From NCBI GenBank assembly GCA_018432955.1, contig JAHDSE010000117.1, positions 1-39,445 of the forward strand: 39,445 nt of DNA, read 5' to 3'. The stretch comes from Syntrophomonadaceae bacterium. GTDB taxonomy: Bacteria; Bacillota; Syntrophomonadia; Syntrophomonadales; Syntrophomonadaceae. Positions 19,027 through 32,111 of this stretch are shown here, piece by piece. A program made the translations under genes and the position numbers. Under the pieces are notes generated by a model. The model was not told the origin of the DNA. It worked only from the letters and a program-made list of their open reading frames with translations, and made no database searches. Each line of letters starts with the position of its first letter. Position 1 is the stretch's first letter.

Positions 19027-21090
19027 ATGGAAGAAAGACCAGCAATATTTGGTCGGCTTTTTGAGTACAGTGACATATTAATAGCGGTTGTGGTAGTCAG
19101 CATAGTCATTATGATGATTATTCCAATGAATCCTGTTTTACTGGATATTTTGTTAACATTTAATATAAGCTTTGCCCTGATTATTTTGATGGTTTCCATG
19201 TTTAATCGCGAACCCCTGGAGTTTTCAGTTTTTCCTTCTTTACTTCTGGTTATGACCCTTTTCAGACTTTCACTGAATGTTTCATCAACCAGGCTTATTC
19301 TGCTGAATGGCTATGCAGGGGATGTAATCGAGGCTTTCGGTTTGTTTGTGGTTGGAGGCAACACAGTTGTTGGCCTGGTAATATTTCTAATTCTTATCGT
19401 TATACAATTTATTGTAATAACCAAAGGGGCAGAGCGAGTATCAGAGGTGGCGGCGCGTTTCACCCTCGATGCTATGCCGGGAAAACAGATGGCTATTGAC
19501 GCAGATCTTAATGCTGGACTTATTAACGAGGATGCAGCCCGTAATCGCAGAGAAAAAATCCAGAGAGAAGCAGACTTCTACGGCGCCATGGATGGGGCCA
19601 GCAAATTTGTAAAAGGTGATGCAATTGCAGGAATAGTGATTACCATAATAAATATTGTCGGCGGCTTTGTCATTGGTATGGCCCAGAAGGGGATGAGTTT
19701 GGGCGATGCAACCCAGACATATACGCTCTTAACTGTCGGTGACGGGCTGGTTACGCAGATCCCGGCTTTGCTTATATCTACAGCAACCGGGATAGTTGTC
19801 ACCAGGAGCGCCTCCAAATACAGCCTGGGAAAAGAAATCGGGTCACAGCTTTTTAATTATCCCAAAGCGCTTGGGATAGCAGCTGTTATATTGCTGGCTC
19901 TGGGAACAGTTGGCTTACCCAGATTGCCCATGTATTCACTGGCCATATTGTTTGGATTTCTTTCTTTTGCTTTTAAGACTTCAACAATAGACGAAGTTGA
20001 AGACAGTGATGAAGAGGAAATCCAGGAGGCTGAAGAAATCAAGAAAGCAGAAAATGTAGTGGAACTTCTGCAGGTGGAAAAAATGGAAATGGAACTGGGA
20101 TATGGCCTGATTCCTCTGGTTGATGCTGAACAAGGAGGCGATCTTCTCGACAGGATAGTAATGATAAGGAGGCAGTGTGCAGTTGAACTTGGTTTTATTG
20201 TGCCGCCTATTCGCATCCGGGATAATATGCAGTTAAAACCCAATGCCTATGTAGTCAAAATCAAAGGAACGGAGATTGCTTCAGGGGAGTTGATGCTGGA
20301 TAATTACCTGGCTATAGGGCCGGATATTGAAAACGATGCAGAACTGGCTGGAATTGATACTATTGAACCGGCCTTTAACCTTCCCGCACGCTGGATAGAT
20401 ACCGCAGACAAAGATAATGCAGAATTAAAAGGATATACAGTAGTAGATCCGCCATCGGTTCTGGCTACGCATCTTACATCTGTAGTAAAATCCCATGCAT
20501 CTGAACTCCTGGGACGACAGGAAATCCAAAATACGGTCGAGTTTATAAAAGAAAGCAACCCTGCGGTGGTTGATGAATTAATTCCCGATTTAATGAGCCT
20601 GGGAGATATTCAAAAAGTCCTTTCTAATCTTTTAAAGGAACAGGTTCCTATAAGAGATATGCTGACAATCATGGAAACTCTGGCGGACTTTGCAAAAATC
20701 AGCAGAGATACCGATGTTCTTACTGAATATGTACGACAGGCCTTAAAAAGACAAATAAGCAAACAATATCTGAATGACAATGGTAAATTAACGGTAATAA
20801 CCCTGGATCCATCTCTGGAAGAAATGCTTCGTGATTCAATACAACAAAGTGATTTTGGCTCATACTTGGCTCTGGATCCGGATATTGCACAAAAAGTTAT
20901 TGACAAATTATCCTTATATTATCAAGATTTAAGCAATAAGGGGATAACCCCTATTGTATTGTGTGCTCCTGTACTGAGATTATATTTCAAACGATTAATC
21001 AATCGTTTTATCCCCAATCTTCTTGTACTCTCTTATAATGAGATTGATTCCGAAGTAAATGTTGAAGTTATAGGGATGGTGTCACTATGA
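19027..21090 (+). CDS. flhA: Flagellar export gate protein FlhA
   Basis: FlhA forms the nonameric export ring and its cytoplasmic domain docks chaperone-substrate complexes. The 687-residue length is typical. There are about eight membrane helices in residues 15-310. The FHIPEP-family signature is seen at SEVAARFTLDAMPGKQMAID (about 139-158), then NEDAARNRREKIQREADFYG. The linker is acidic (EDSDEEEIQEAEE near 325-340) and the C-terminal domain is complete. ATG start at 19027 behind GGGAGGA. The stop shares bases with the flhF start (ATGA overlap). Confidence 0.97.
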   Translation: MEERPAIFGRLFEYSDILIAVVVVSIVIMMIIPMNPVLLDILLTFNISFALIILMVSMFNREPLEFSVFPSLLLVMTLFRLSLNVSSTRLILLNGYAGDVIEAFGLFVVGGNTVVGLVIFLILIVIQFIVITKGAERVSEVAARFTLDAMPGKQMAIDADLNAGLINEDAARNRREKIQREADFYGAMDGASKFVKGDAIAGIVITIINIVGGFVIGMAQKGMSLGDATQTYTLLTVGDGLVTQIPALLISTATGIVVTRSASKYSLGKEIGSQLFNYPKALGIAAVILLALGTVGLPRLPMYSLAILFGFLSFAFKTSTIDEVEDSDEEEIQEAEEIKKAENVVELLQVEKMEMELGYGLIPLVDAEQGGDLLDRIVMIRRQCAVELGFIVPPIRIRDNMQLKPNAYVVKIKGTEIASGELMLDNYLAIGPDIENDAELAGIDTIEPAFNLPARWIDTADKDNAELKGYTVVDPPSVLATHLTSVVKSHASELLGRQEIQNTVEFIKESNPAVVDELIPDLMSLGDIQKVLSNLLKEQVPIRDMLTIMETLADFAKISRDTDVLTEYVRQALKRQISKQYLNDNGKLTVITLDPSLEEMLRDSIQQSDFGSYLALDPDIAQKVIDKLSLYYQDLSNKGITPIVLCAPVLRLYFKRLINRFIPNLLVLSYNEIDSEVNVEVIGMVSL

Positions 21091-22265
21091 TAATCAAAAA
21101 ATTTATTGCCAGGGATTTTAAAACTGCGATGAAGCAGGCTAAAGAGGAGATGGGGCGTGATGCTATTATTCTGCATACAGGGCAGGTGAGAAAAGGCGGA
21201 CTGCTCAGTTTCTTTTCTCGTCCGCAGGTAGAAATTACAGTGGCAGTTGACGATAGCTTGAAAGTCAGCAGTGACAAGGCGAGAAGAAATCCGGTGTTCC
21301 CATTCAGCAATTCTGTGACGAGCAAGAGCAAGCCTGTTGAATTAGAATTAGCCGCTGTTGCGAATAGTGACAAACGCGAAAAAGAACTCTTGGATGAACT
21401 GCAGAGAATGAAGCAAATAATGACTGATGTCAAACTCAAGATGTATGAAGTGGAATTTATCAAAGGAATGTCGGAAAATGTACAGATTTTCTACGAAATT
21501 CTCATTAATAATAAGGTAGAAAAAGAATTGGCTTTGAAGATTGTCAACAGTGTGGAAGCAAGGCTTCCCAGTGATAAATCCAATGATGAAAACTGGGCTA
21601 AGGATGTATGTTTGCACACCTTGCAGGAATATTTTTCCGAGGCAAAACCTATCAGCATAAGCAATGGAGAAAAAGGCAAACTGGTGTTTATGGTCGGACC
21701 CACTGGAGTAGGTAAGACTACTACCATAGCTAAACTTGCAGCAAATCTGGCTTTTACCGAGGGTAAAGAAGTAGCAGTGATAACCCTGGATACCTATAGA
21801 GTGTCAGCAGCTGAACAGTTAAGGACTTATGCAGAAATTATCGATATTCCTATTAGTGTTGTTTTCAATACTTTTGATCTGGAAGAGGCGATTAAACAAT
21901 ATGGGGATAAGGATCTGATATTTGTTGATACTGCAGGACGCAGTCCTTATCACGATGAACATATGGAGGAGTTAAGGGAGTTTATTGAAATCGGCAAACC
22001 GCATGAAATAATTCTGGTCTTAAGTGTGACTACCGATAGCAACGATATAAAAAACATTTACTGTAAGTTTAACAGCATAGGCATTGATAAAATTATCTTT
22101 ACCAAACTGGATGAAACCTCCAGTTATGGGCAAATATTAAACACTGTATATGAGGTCGAAAAACCAATTGCCTATTTGACTACAGGGCAAAACGTCCCGG
22201 ATGATATCGAGATACCCGACCCCCTGTATCTGGCAAAAATGCTTCTGAGAAGGGATGAAGCATGA
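21087..22265 (+). CDS. flhF: Flagellar biosynthesis SRP-type GTPase FlhF
   Basis: FlhF is a signal-recognition-particle-like GTPase that sets the position and number of flagella. It has 392 residues. The N-terminal B domain begins MIIKKFIARDFKTAMKQAKE. The G domain has the P-loop GPTGVGKTTTIAKLA starting at residue 204, then LDTYRVSAAEQLRTYAEI and the G3 motif FVDTAGRSPYHDEHM. G4 is TKLDET. It is downstream of flhA and upstream of flhG, the standard order; both junctions overlap by a few bases. Confidence 0.96.
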   Translation: MIIKKFIARDFKTAMKQAKEEMGRDAIILHTGQVRKGGLLSFFSRPQVEITVAVDDSLKVSSDKARRNPVFPFSNSVTSKSKPVELELAAVANSDKREKELLDELQRMKQIMTDVKLKMYEVEFIKGMSENVQIFYEILINNKVEKELALKIVNSVEARLPSDKSNDENWAKDVCLHTLQEYFSEAKPISISNGEKGKLVFMVGPTGVGKTTTIAKLAANLAFTEGKEVAVITLDTYRVSAAEQLRTYAEIIDIPISVVFNTFDLEEAIKQYGDKDLIFVDTAGRSPYHDEHMEELREFIEIGKPHEIILVLSVTTDSNDIKNIYCKFNSIGIDKIIFTKLDETSSYGQILNTVYEVEKPIAYLTTGQNVPDDIEIPDPLYLAKMLLRRDEA

Positions 22266-28616: not shown

Positions 28617-29390
28617 ATGAAAAAGGATATGGGCATGGTTTGGGTTCATTATAAAGAAAAGGATGACTTTGAAGCCAGAGATGAATTAATAATTCATTAT
28701 GCCCATCTGGTAAAATATGTTGCTAACAGGCTGGCCATACATTTATCGTCTGTAGTGGAAATTGATGAACTATATTCATATGGTATTGAAGGTTTGATAG
28801 ATGCTATAGAGAAATATGATCATAAGAGAAATATTAAATTTGAAACTTATGCCATTACCCGAATCAGAGGGTCCATGATTGATGGCTTGCGCGCAATGGA
28901 TTGGGTACCGGTATCAGTGAGGCAGAAAGGTAAGGAACTCGAAAAAACCTATGTGGCTTTGGAAAAAAGTCTGGGAAGAGCTGCCAGCGATGAGGAAGTG
29001 GCCAGGGAGCTGGGAATCAGTATAGACAGCTTGCATGGCCTATTAAGAGAACTGGCATCAACCACCATAATATCACTGGATGATTTTTTGCCTGGTGAGG
29101 ATGGCGATGATAAAAAGAAAAGAATTGTTGATATGCTGGTTGATAACAATACTGATGATGCCCAGGAGATTATCGAATTTAAAGAAGTAAAACAATTACT
29201 TGCCAGGTCAATTTCCAAATTGCCGGAAAAAGAGAAAACCGTCATCTACTTTTATTATTTTGAAGGTCTTACCCTGAAAGAAATTGGAGCAACCCTTGAT
29301 TTGTCAGAGTCACGTATATCACAGCTTCATACCAAGGCAATCTTGAGACTCAGAGGAAGTTTGAGCAAAAAGAAATATATGCTGGTATAG
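28617..29390 (+). CDS. sigD: Flagellar/motility sigma factor SigD (FliA, sigma-28)
   Basis: Alternative sigma factor that directs RNA polymerase to late flagellar, motility and chemotaxis promoters. The 257-residue protein has sigma region 2 at about 20-95 (VEIDELYSYGIEGLIDAIEK and FETYAITRIRGSMIDGLRAM). Region 3 follows (SVRQKGKELEKTYVALEKSL), then region 4 with LTLKEIGATLDLSESRISQL. The arrangement is that of FliA/WhiG-type sigma factors. ATG start at 28617 with GGGGAGAGA at 28599-28607. Location after cheD matches Bacillus sigD. An anti-sigma FlgM is not seen in the window. Confidence 0.96.
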   Translation: MKKDMGMVWVHYKEKDDFEARDELIIHYAHLVKYVANRLAIHLSSVVEIDELYSYGIEGLIDAIEKYDHKRNIKFETYAITRIRGSMIDGLRAMDWVPVSVRQKGKELEKTYVALEKSLGRAASDEEVARELGISIDSLHGLLRELASTTIISLDDFLPGEDGDDKKKRIVDMLVDNNTDDAQEIIEFKEVKQLLARSISKLPEKEKTVIYFYYFEGLTLKEIGATLDLSESRISQLHTKAILRLRGSLSKKKYMLV

Positions 29391-29410: not shown

Positions 29411-30817
29411 GTGGCGGAGCAAGAGGTGAATAAGGATGCTGAAGCTAAGATCACTATAGACAAAGACAGGATGAAGGCTTACCTGGAGGTCGAAGCTCCT
29501 GCCGGGTCAGGCAAAGTATGTGATAAGGAGGCGGTAAAGAAAGCCCTGGCCGATTTGAATGTAGTTTATGGCGTTAAAGAAGAGCTAATCGATCAAGTCC
29601 TGCAGGAAGAAAATTGGGGACGCAAATTTGTGATTGCAGAAGGCAGGCCTGCTAAAGATGGTGATAATGCTACAATAAGCTACAACTTCCCCCATCGTGA
29701 AGAAAGGATTAAACCCAGGGTAGATGAGAAGGGCAATGTCAATTACCATGACCTGGGTTTAATATATAATGTTCAAAAAGGACAGCCTCTGGCAGAACGT
29801 AAGCCTCCAAATGAAGGAGTAGCTGGTATTGATGTTTGTGGACAGGAGATTGTCCCTAAAAGGGGTAAAGACATACGTTTACCCAAGGGGAAAAATACGG
29901 TTTACGATGAACAGGAAAGAATTTTGTATGCTACTATCGATGGCAATGTTGTTATGGTTAATAATAAAGTAATGGTGGAACCGGTCTTGAATATAGCAGG
30001 AAATGTTGACTATTCTTCAGGGGATATAGATTTTGTTGGCGATGTGGTGGTTCGCGGCAATATAAACTCTGGTTTCAAGGTCAGGGCCCAGGGAGATATA
30101 GAAGTCAATGGTTTTATTGAAGCAGCAGAGGTGCTGGCAGGGGGCAATATTTTGGTTAAAGGTGGTATTACCGCTGCTTTTAAGGGACATGTTAAAGCTG
30201 AAGGAAATATATGTGTCCGCTTTGTGGAAAATTCCATTGTGGAGGCTGGCGGAGATGTTATTGTTCGGGAAGGAATCATGCAGTCCAACATAAAAGCCGG
30301 GGGCAGTGTGAGAGTAAACGCTCGCAAAGCCATTATAGTAGGCGGACATATTCAAGCCCGTGAAGAAGTGGAATCAAAAGTTCTGGGATCTCCCCTGGCA
30401 ACGCAGACTATAGTTGAAGTCGGCATTGATCCCCGAGACAGAGAGGAATTCCAGCACCTATTAAAAGAAAAGACCGAAAAGAAAAAAGTACTGGATAATT
30501 TGACCAACAACCTCCAGCTTATTCAAAAAAGTGGAATTCCCATGGAACAATATAGTGAGAAAAAGAGAACCGCTTTAATTAAAATGCTGGATGATTATAA
30601 AGTATTACGACAGGAACAGACAGAGAGAGAAAACAGGATAATACAGTTGGAAAAGAACTTTGAGCGGGCATCTTATTCCAAGGTTAAGGTTCATGATATA
30701 GTATATCCGGGGGTTAGAGTGAGTATTGGCCAGGCTATTTATGTGGTGAATGATTCCATTAAATACACTGCGTTTATTCTCGATCAGGGAGAAGTGAGAA
30801 TATCATCGCTGCGTTGA
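29411..30817 (+). CDS. FapA-family (DUF342) polymer-forming protein
   Basis: A 468-residue protein of the DUF342/FapA family. The N-terminal part has the FapA-type alpha/beta region (about 10-160). A right-handed beta-helix follows at about 170-330, built of short glycine-rich rungs such as GDIDFVGDVVVRGNINSGFK and GDIEVNGFIEAAEVLAGGNI. A predicted coiled coil lies at about 340-420, then a short beta-rich tail. FapA-like proteins are common after sigD in Clostridia, but their job is not established; a scaffold role at the membrane or flagellum is an inference. GTG start at 29411 with AGGAGGTGG upstream. Confidence 0.85.
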   Translation: MAEQEVNKDAEAKITIDKDRMKAYLEVEAPAGSGKVCDKEAVKKALADLNVVYGVKEELIDQVLQEENWGRKFVIAEGRPAKDGDNATISYNFPHREERIKPRVDEKGNVNYHDLGLIYNVQKGQPLAERKPPNEGVAGIDVCGQEIVPKRGKDIRLPKGKNTVYDEQERILYATIDGNVVMVNNKVMVEPVLNIAGNVDYSSGDIDFVGDVVVRGNINSGFKVRAQGDIEVNGFIEAAEVLAGGNILVKGGITAAFKGHVKAEGNICVRFVENSIVEAGGDVIVREGIMQSNIKAGGSVRVNARKAIIVGGHIQAREEVESKVLGSPLATQTIVEVGIDPRDREEFQHLLKEKTEKKKVLDNLTNNLQLIQKSGIPMEQYSEKKRTALIKMLDDYKVLRQEQTERENRIIQLEKNFERASYSKVKVHDIVYPGVRVSIGQAIYVVNDSIKYTAFILDQGEVRISSLR

Positions 30818-30836: not shown

Positions 30837-31190
30837 ATGACTATAAGAAGCCTCGATATGCAGGTTCTTGTGCAGAAGGTCGGTGATGTAGCACGGGTAC
30901 AGCAAGCGCAGCAAACAGAAAGCAACAGCAGACAGCAGGAATTTTTGCAGGCAATTGACCAGCAGACCAAAGAGAGAAGCAAGGCAGTGAAAGAGACTGA
31001 AAAAAACGAGTCTGCCTTTGTACATGGCAAAGAAGAACAGGAAAAAGAAAAAAAAGCCAAAAAAAAGTCAAAAGGAAAAGGAAATAAAAAGAAAAAAGAG
31101 AATAAAGAGAATAAAGAGAATAAAGAGAATAAAGAAAGCAGTCTTGCGAAAGACCGCATAAAGGGTAATAATATTGACTTCACAGTCTAA
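30837..31190 (+). CDS. Lysine-rich small protein of the sigD-rpsB interval, function unknown
   Basis: A 117-residue protein. Residues 1-60 are polar and predicted helical, with IRSLDMQVLVQKVGDVARVQ. The C-terminal half is very rich in Lys, Glu and Asn and includes four tandem copies of K-E-N, encoded by four 9-base AAAGAGAAT units at 31095-31130. There is no membrane segment or signal peptide. The start is ATG 30837 behind GGGAGGT (30821-30827). Small proteins with a similar N-terminus occur next to FapA-like genes in Clostridia, from memory. No function can be assigned. Codon use in the lysine tail is extreme, and the repeat may vary between strains. Confidence 0.6.
   Translation: MTIRSLDMQVLVQKVGDVARVQQAQQTESNSRQQEFLQAIDQQTKERSKAVKETEKNESAFVHGKEEQEKEKKAKKKSKGKGNKKKKENKENKENKENKESSLAKDRIKGNNIDFTV
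31095..31130 (+). repeat. Four tandem 9-bp units (KEN codons)
   Basis: Exact tandem repeats of AAAGAGAAT at 31095-31103, 31104-31112, 31113-31121 and 31122-31130, in frame as Lys-Glu-Asn. The unit is a multiple of three, so slippage would lengthen or shorten the protein without breaking the frame. Confidence 0.85.
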
Positions 31191-31206
31191 AGGCAGGTGA
31201 AGCGCC

Positions 31207-31998
31207 ATATCTGTATGGTCTGTTCTTTGTACTATTATTGGAATTATAGTTTTATTGTTTATTATGTGTCTTTTAAAAAATACCATAATGGAAGCGAGAA
31301 GCATCAGACAAAATTTGGAAACAATTATGGAAAATGCTGCAGACATTTCCAAATCAATTGTAGATGATATTGATAAAAGGGTTTCCTCTAAAAAGGAAAT
31401 CTGTGAGGAGACTGTGCAATATCCTGTAAGTGAAACACTTTGCACAGAGCCTTGTTTAGCAATAATGGAAATCAAGGAAACTGTTGAGCCGGATGATGAA
31501 GGGGAAAAAGGATATAGACTGAAGGTTCATGAATTGGCCAGGGAACTGGGAATGAGCAGCAAACGTCTGATAAATATCCTGAAAGATATGGGCTATAATA
31601 TTTCGCATCACATGAACAGCCTGGATACTCACATAGTAAAAGAGGTCAAGGGAAAAATCAATAAGGCAGATCTGTTGGAGATCAAAGCTGATGATCAGGA
31701 AAAACACAAGAGCCTGGTAAAACATAATGAAAGAGCAGATATCGCGAAGATAAACGCTTATGATTCTTCTGCTGGCATGCCTGGTATAGCTTCTCCCCAA
31801 AAACCTGAAATCCAGGCGAAAAAGCATAAGGAAATGGATATAGGTATTGATGATTTAAAATCTGCTCATCCCTATCTTGCTGTTCGTACCCTTTTTGAAA
31901 AGGGATATTCGGTGAGGGAAATTGCAAAATTGCTTGAAAGGGGCCAGGGCGAGGTTAGTTTAATTCTTAACCTTACCAAAAAGAAACAAGCTCGCTAA
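31207..31998 (+). CDS. SwrB-like membrane protein with an IF2_N-like segment and C-terminal DUF6115 helix-turn-helix
   Basis: Read from ATA at 31207, six bases after AGGTGA (31195-31200), the frame gives a full membrane helix (SVWSVLCTIIGIIVLLFIMC) joined to a coiled, charged region. The frame has a stop at 31198 and no ATG, GTG or TTG before TTG 31255, which would cut into that helix and has no ribosome binding site. Residues about 104-149 resemble the IF2 N-terminal repeat (KVHELARELGMSSKRLINIL, then HHMNSL). The last 45 residues (AVRTLFEKGYSVREIAKLLE RGQGEVSLILNL) match the DUF6115/SwrB C-terminus. Position between sigD and rpsB is that of swrB, which promotes flagellar basal body assembly in Bacillus. 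The start is uncertain; TTG 31255 is the conventional alternative. Confidence 0.68.
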   Translation: MSVWSVLCTIIGIIVLLFIMCLLKNTIMEARSIRQNLETIMENAADISKSIVDDIDKRVSSKKEICEETVQYPVSETLCTEPCLAIMEIKETVEPDDEGEKGYRLKVHELARELGMSSKRLINILKDMGYNISHHMNSLDTHIVKEVKGKINKADLLEIKADDQEKHKSLVKHNERADIAKINAYDSSAGMPGIASPQKPEIQAKKHKEMDIGIDDLKSAHPYLAVRTLFEKGYSVREIAKLLERGQGEVSLILNLTKKKQAR

Positions 31999-32083
31999 CC
32001 ATAAGTATGACAGATTATCGGAGCAAGAAAAAAGTTAAAAATCAAGGAATTGGCAAATGCTGCTATTCAATTTTTTCGGTATG

Positions 32084-32111
32084 AGGAAAACATTTGTTTT
32101 CCTTTTGTTTT
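32084..32111 (+). terminator. Intrinsic terminator at the end of the fla/che cluster
   Basis: An eight-pair stem AGGAAAAC/GTTTTCCT with an ATTT loop (32084-32103) runs into TTTTGTTTT. It lies 86 bases after the SwrB-like gene and before the rpsB promoter region, and fits the end of the large motility transcript. The stem is A+T-rich, so efficiency is uncertain. Confidence 0.75.

Follow-up and report, generated by a model that had tools for sequence, protein, structure and literature searches.

In Bacillus subtilis, the gene for the membrane protein SwrB (YlxL) closes the fla/che operon. SwrB promotes an export-competent basal body, activates flagellar export through FliP, and helps to decide when a new flagellar base begins export. 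In Vibrio, Pseudomonas and Shewanella, FipA, in which a DUF2802 domain (residues 68–135) follows a membrane helix and a coiled coil, recruits the GTPase FlhF in these polar flagellates, and its gene adjoins, just downstream, an operon with flhF, flhG and fliA (PMC11620751). FipA residues G110, E126 and L129 are fully conserved, G110 and L129 being required for FlhF binding, and homologues of FipA are reported to be absent from Bacillus (PMC11620751). The third relevant system is translation initiation factor IF2, the first N-terminal repeat (N1) of which binds the C-terminal part of NusA in Escherichia coli. Here we describe a gene of Syntrophomonadaceae that combines features of all three.

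The window analyzed is a stretch of 39,445 nucleotides from a Syntrophomonadaceae bacterium (contig JAHDSE010000117.1; all features given below lie on the + strand). It carries a flagellar/chemotaxis operon running from flgB to fliA and including flhF and flhG, with most genes named by recognition of their sequences. The sigma-D gene fliA (28617–29390), an open reading frame likewise assigned to its family by recognition rather than by search, is followed by fapA (29411–30817, FapA domains in Pfam), an ORF of 117 residues (30837–31190), the swrB-like gene (31207–31998) and rpsB-tsf-pyrH-frr. The swrB-like gene is thus the last of the fla/che genes, 5′ of rpsB, matching the position of swrB in B. 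subtilis. The position between sigD and rpsB assigned to it in an earlier note on this sequence is correct, but fapA and the small ORF also intervene. A terminator-like hairpin (32083–32104), recognized by a pattern scan only, lies between the swrB-like gene and rpsB, and an Rfam search of the window returned no match.

The frame 31207–31998 translates into 263 residues (P0001), comprising a membrane helix, a coiled coil, an IF2_N domain and a DUF6115 region. In Pfam searches, IF2_N (PF04760) matched residues 105–152 (31519–31662) with 47.3 bits (E = 1.8e-12, profile positions 4–51 of 53), compared with a cut-off of 25.3 bits, and DUF6115 (PF19610) matched residues 161–256 with 30.9 bits (E = 4e-7), compared with a cut-off of 27 bits; the DUF6115 profile matched all 25 members of the alignment used for structure prediction (A2). 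An NCBIfam search yielded sub-threshold matches only. No Pfam match to the GTPase domain of IF2 was found in the 263-residue product, and the genome has a separate infB.

In an AlphaFold model built on the 25-sequence alignment, residues 1–68 (31207–31410) form the membrane helix and coiled coil, with a single continuous hydrophobic helix predicted over residues 2–68 (pLDDT >90 to about residue 60). Predicted disorder from ~68 to about 100 and from 161 to 210 flanks a compact unit at residues ~101–161 (31507–31689) with the order strand-helix-helix-strand-long helix and pLDDT of about 95 over most of its length, and residues 214–262 (31846–31992) fold into a four-helix C-terminal domain, which is DUF6115- and DUF2802-like. 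In a Foldseek comparison with the PDB, the six top matches were all Thermus IF2 structures with the N-terminal domain (probability 1.00, 27–28% identity), although with modest E-values (best, 0.013). A phmmer search with the IF2_N segment alone likewise ranked Thermus IF2 (4b3x) first (E = 0.008). The earlier note had proposed, from the letters of the sequence, an IF2_N-like segment within a membrane-anchored protein whose C-terminal part belongs to the DUF6115/SwrB family; the profile matches, the predicted anchor and the IF2 folds at the top of the PDB comparison all bear this out.

The domain architecture of this gene is new for a family already known, and it is real and conserved. Like B. 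subtilis SwrB, the product has an N-terminal membrane anchor, here predicted, and a DUF6115 C-terminus; unlike it, the Syntrophomonadaceae protein has an IF2_N domain of about 50 residues and long linkers after the coiled coil, ahead of the C-terminal domain. It resembles IF2 N1, as represented by Thermus IF2 (4b3x) and Domain I of E. coli IF2 alpha, in sequence and predicted fold, but this N1 copy sits in a membrane-anchored flagellar protein that is devoid of the GTPase and ribosome-binding domains of IF2. We favor, with a probability of roughly 0.6, the reading that the protein is a membrane-anchored flagellar assembly factor of the SwrB/FipA type into which IF2 N1 was inserted as a putative binding module.

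To assess the distribution of the fusion, we surveyed 54 Syntrophomonadaceae genomes from 23 genera. The swrB-like gene was detected in 38 of the 54 genomes, and in 23 of the 54, representing 12 of the 23 genera, it contains IF2_N above the Pfam cut-off; genome G030 is a 24th carrier according to a local model, its module being strongly diverged and below the Pfam cut-off. The infB genes of the family contain IF2_N above the cut-off, usually in two copies, and no third location above the cut-off was seen in the 54 genomes besides infB and the swrB-like gene. In genera g3, g12, g14, g19, g20, g22 and g23, the swrB-like gene is present with no module detected, and the same holds for related families of the same order. 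A set of about 48 DUF6115 ORFs from other Firmicutes, comprising the top-scoring ones and the majority of the longest, likewise yielded no IF2_N. The IF2_N insert, for which the earlier note had suggested a survey of relatives, is accordingly a lineage trait within Syntrophomonadaceae. A count of gains and losses on a species tree, built on RpsB and then on the IF2 G-domain, was given up because the backbone of the tree was not resolved; with that same limitation, a single clade of module carriers, and with it a single gain in one ancestor, was neither rejected (AU test, p = 0.36) nor demonstrated. The longest forms, L121 (G032) and L204 (G017), reach 388–389 residues; in them the first linker, ahead of IF2_N, is much extended.

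The IF2_N segments of the swrB-like genes share a mean identity of 28–53% with infB N1 and of 9–26% with infB N2. Judged by these values, the module is a descendant of the first repeat of IF2, and an ancestor within Syntrophomonadaceae would have inserted a copy of N1 into its swrB-like gene. In genomes with both genes on one contig, swrB is followed by infB at a distance of ~18 kb and in the same orientation, which makes an origin by local duplication from infB plausible. Among themselves, the infB N1 domains share about 70% identity, compared with 40% for the module, indicating that the swrB copies diverged further; furthermore, the SQAxWVKK end of the family's infB N1 is mostly lost in them. 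In-frame stops encountered in the infB matches were considered as recoding and dismissed, as they most likely come from alignments that extend 5′ of the infB start codon, an ATG with a TGA directly before it.

Across 21 proteins, the module spans 49–51 residues with 40% mean identity, the C-terminal domain 46 residues with 65% identity, and the linkers 9 to 71 residues with 11–16% identity. In all seven pairs compared, dN is lower than dS in the module, with dN/dS of about 0.08–0.54. The IF2_N module is thus a maintained domain under purifying selection. The same data bear on the possibility of a passive relic, with the module serving only as a folded, ligand-free spacer in a disordered linker. 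Its location between two highly variable linkers, the strong divergence in G030, the absence of the module from several genera of the family and a possible degenerate remnant in G022 are all compatible with such a relic, but the constant length, the 40% identity and the dN/dS values in the compared pairs are not what would be expected of it, and we consider this explanation unlikely. The candidate remnant in G022 is the segment LSLQNLAKQYGLTTEQVDSLLKDL at about residues 90–120 of a 217-residue ORF (L118), which the local IF2_N model does not detect.

The relationship of the C-terminal domain to FipA was addressed through the DUF2802 profile, which has 68 positions; if positions 1–68 are taken to align with FipA residues 68–135 without gaps, the conserved G, E and L fall on profile positions 43, 59 and 62. 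In P0001, G233, E249 and L252 align with FipA G110, E126 and L129, and these residues are invariant or nearly so in relatives. The register (G-x15-E-x2-L) is the same in all six DUF6115 proteins checked, namely P0001 and five divergent ones. Among ten divergent DUF6115 proteins, DUF2802 gave E-values from 4.6e-6 to 0.0047 and was the second-best Pfam family after DUF6115 in nine. Generic helix-turn-helix families also match this domain but are outscored by DUF2802 in 9 of the 10 proteins, and the DUF2802 match in DUF6115 proteins extends to the end of the domain. All the DUF2802 scores lie below the curated cut-off of 33.5 bits (13.9 for P0001; 27.2 at best for the other DUF6115 proteins), and the swrB-like protein is not classed as FipA. 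A low-score DUF2802 search of whole genomes of the family was also tried and proved unspecific.

Beyond sequence similarity, the protein shares with FipA the overall anatomy of a membrane helix, a coiled coil and a C-terminal domain, as well as a gene position downstream of flhF, flhG and fliA; the IF2_N domain and the sub-threshold DUF2802 score, together with the reported absence of FipA from Bacillus, set the two apart. The flhF gene of the same operon (21087–22265; TIGR03499, E = 1.4e-66) encodes a candidate partner. In a sample of 398 genomes of the phylum, with overlaps counted by hand from tables, DUF6115 occurs in 199 of 296 genomes with both FlhA and FlhF, compared with 3 of 29 with FlhA but without FlhF (Fisher p = 2e-9, uncorrected for ancestry); none of these three genomes is finished. 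It is therefore likely, although unproven, that the DUF6115 protein works like FipA. In the favored reading, the N-terminal helix would attach the protein to the membrane and the coiled coil would mediate oligomerization. The C-terminal domain would contact FlhF or the basal body; within the assembly machinery of the flagellum, FlhF is the most likely docking site, given that the similar DUF2802 domain of FipA binds it. Our literature search found no paper linking DUF6115 or SwrB with FipA. If confirmed, the likeness would join two factors so far investigated apart, one in Bacillus and the other in polar flagellates, and would predict a testable contact between SwrB and FlhF.

Conversely, the C-terminal domain might be unrelated to FipA, with G-x15-E-x2-L a chance feature of a helix-turn-helix-like fold and with DUF6115 and FlhF co-occurring simply through complete fla/che operons. 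We regard this as a real possibility, albeit one we lean against. It would account for the DUF2802 scores under the curated cut-off and for a co-occurrence statistic that takes no account of phylogeny. Moreover, basal bodies of B. subtilis are mobilized by swrB but not by flhF mutations (PMC12153297), a difference in phenotype that argues against SwrB acting solely via FlhF. However, a chance feature would hardly fall in register at all three positions in six of six proteins, nor would it account for the shared anatomy and the similar operon position.

The earlier note had also described a C-terminal helix-turn-helix and proposed that the combination of anchor, IF2_N-like module and helix-turn-helix may bind a nucleic acid or protein partner. 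The C-terminal domain has weak matches to helix-turn-helix families, but it more specifically resembles the DUF2802 of FipA, and given that DUF2802 binds FlhF, DNA binding is not the first expectation. The corresponding scenario, a membrane-bound transcription regulator with a DNA-binding C-terminal domain and an IF2_N domain that contacts RNA polymerase via NusA, could draw on those weak matches, on DNA-binding domains among the Foldseek matches and on the binding of NusA by E. coli N1. We nevertheless consider it highly improbable, because B. subtilis SwrB acts on flagellar export and not as a direct regulator, and because DUF2802, with a match that reaches the end of the domain, prevails over the generic families in nearly all of the divergent proteins.

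The fold of the module is known, as is a ligand of its E. coli counterpart, and its presence inside a SwrB-like protein offers a handle on the neighbors of SwrB. As a domain on disordered tethers, IF2_N could provide a second protein-binding site and bring a ligand of IF2 N1 to nascent basal bodies. By analogy with E. coli, NusA is one candidate ligand. In this family, NusA stops shortly after KH2 with an acidic tail, and the AR domains used in E. coli are apparently absent; together with the SQAxWVKK end, mostly lost from the swrB copies, this suggests that the ligand of the module may differ from NusA. Alternatively, the module might bind the ribosome or RNA and so hold ribosomes engaged in translation, or the fla/che mRNA, to the membrane close to the basal body. 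Its derivation from IF2 fits this proposal, as does one of the Foldseek matches, 7uiu, in which the N2 subdomain of IF2 is bound to the 30S subunit. However, the insert is N1-like and not N2-like, and the known links of E. coli N1 are with NusA and the nucleoid, not with maturing ribosomes, so that we find ribosome or RNA binding quite unlikely compared with the protein-binding role of the favored reading.

A separate feature of the gene is its start. The Shine-Dalgarno region GGCAGGTGA (31192–31200), conserved in relatives, ends in an in-frame TGA (31198–31200), and no ATG, GTG or TTG occurs in frame before 31255, the first TTG being located 16 codons on, inside the membrane helix. The putative non-canonical start codon ATA (31207–31209) lies 7 bases past AGGTG (31195–31199) and is the first codon at a usable distance. 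Comparison of loci L001–L018 and L094–L119 showed AUA or AUU at the aligned position in relatives. Eleven genomes have no canonical start, with only AUA (G000, G005, G006, G026 and G443) or only AUU (G001, G018, G028, G031, G437 and G439) at this position. Twelve more have an in-frame GTG, itself contained in the Shine-Dalgarno-like sequence, exactly three codons before the conserved AUA/AUU. Genome G444 carries ATG at the site occupied by ATA in its relatives G026 and G443, and in one exception, G442, the ATA is out of frame. The recurrence of AUA/AUU in many independent assemblies makes a sequencing error unlikely, and its presence in forms without IF2_N (G018, G013, G019 and G033) indicates that this feature is independent of the module.

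E. coli infC starts at AUU. Read from the sequence, infC of the same lineage (L205–L213) seems to use AUC or AUU as its start codon, downstream of GGAGGTGAA or GGAGGTGGA, with GGAGGTG preceding the apparent start. The swrB-like gene is probably translated from AUA/AUU, in which case the protein should be scarce and its production should respond to IF3. If true, the gene would join infC in having a conserved non-canonical start, here AUA/AUU, a rare case of control at the level of the start codon outside the initiation factors. The most speculative extension, to which we assign very little credence, is that the tethered N1 draws transcription-translation complexes to nascent basal bodies by way of NusA or a different N1 ligand, while AUA/AUU-initiated synthesis is set by IF3, flagellar assembly thereby being coupled to the state of translation initiation.

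The small ORF directly upstream (30837–31190) is conserved beside swrB and is kept across the family and in other Firmicutes, its product opening with a conserved MTIRSxDMQVLVQK and closing with [LI]D[IV]x[IV], and a Pfam search assigned it to no family. Within it, positions 31090–31137 consist of tandem AATAAAGAG units (KENKENKENKEN) that encode a lysine-rich low-complexity stretch.
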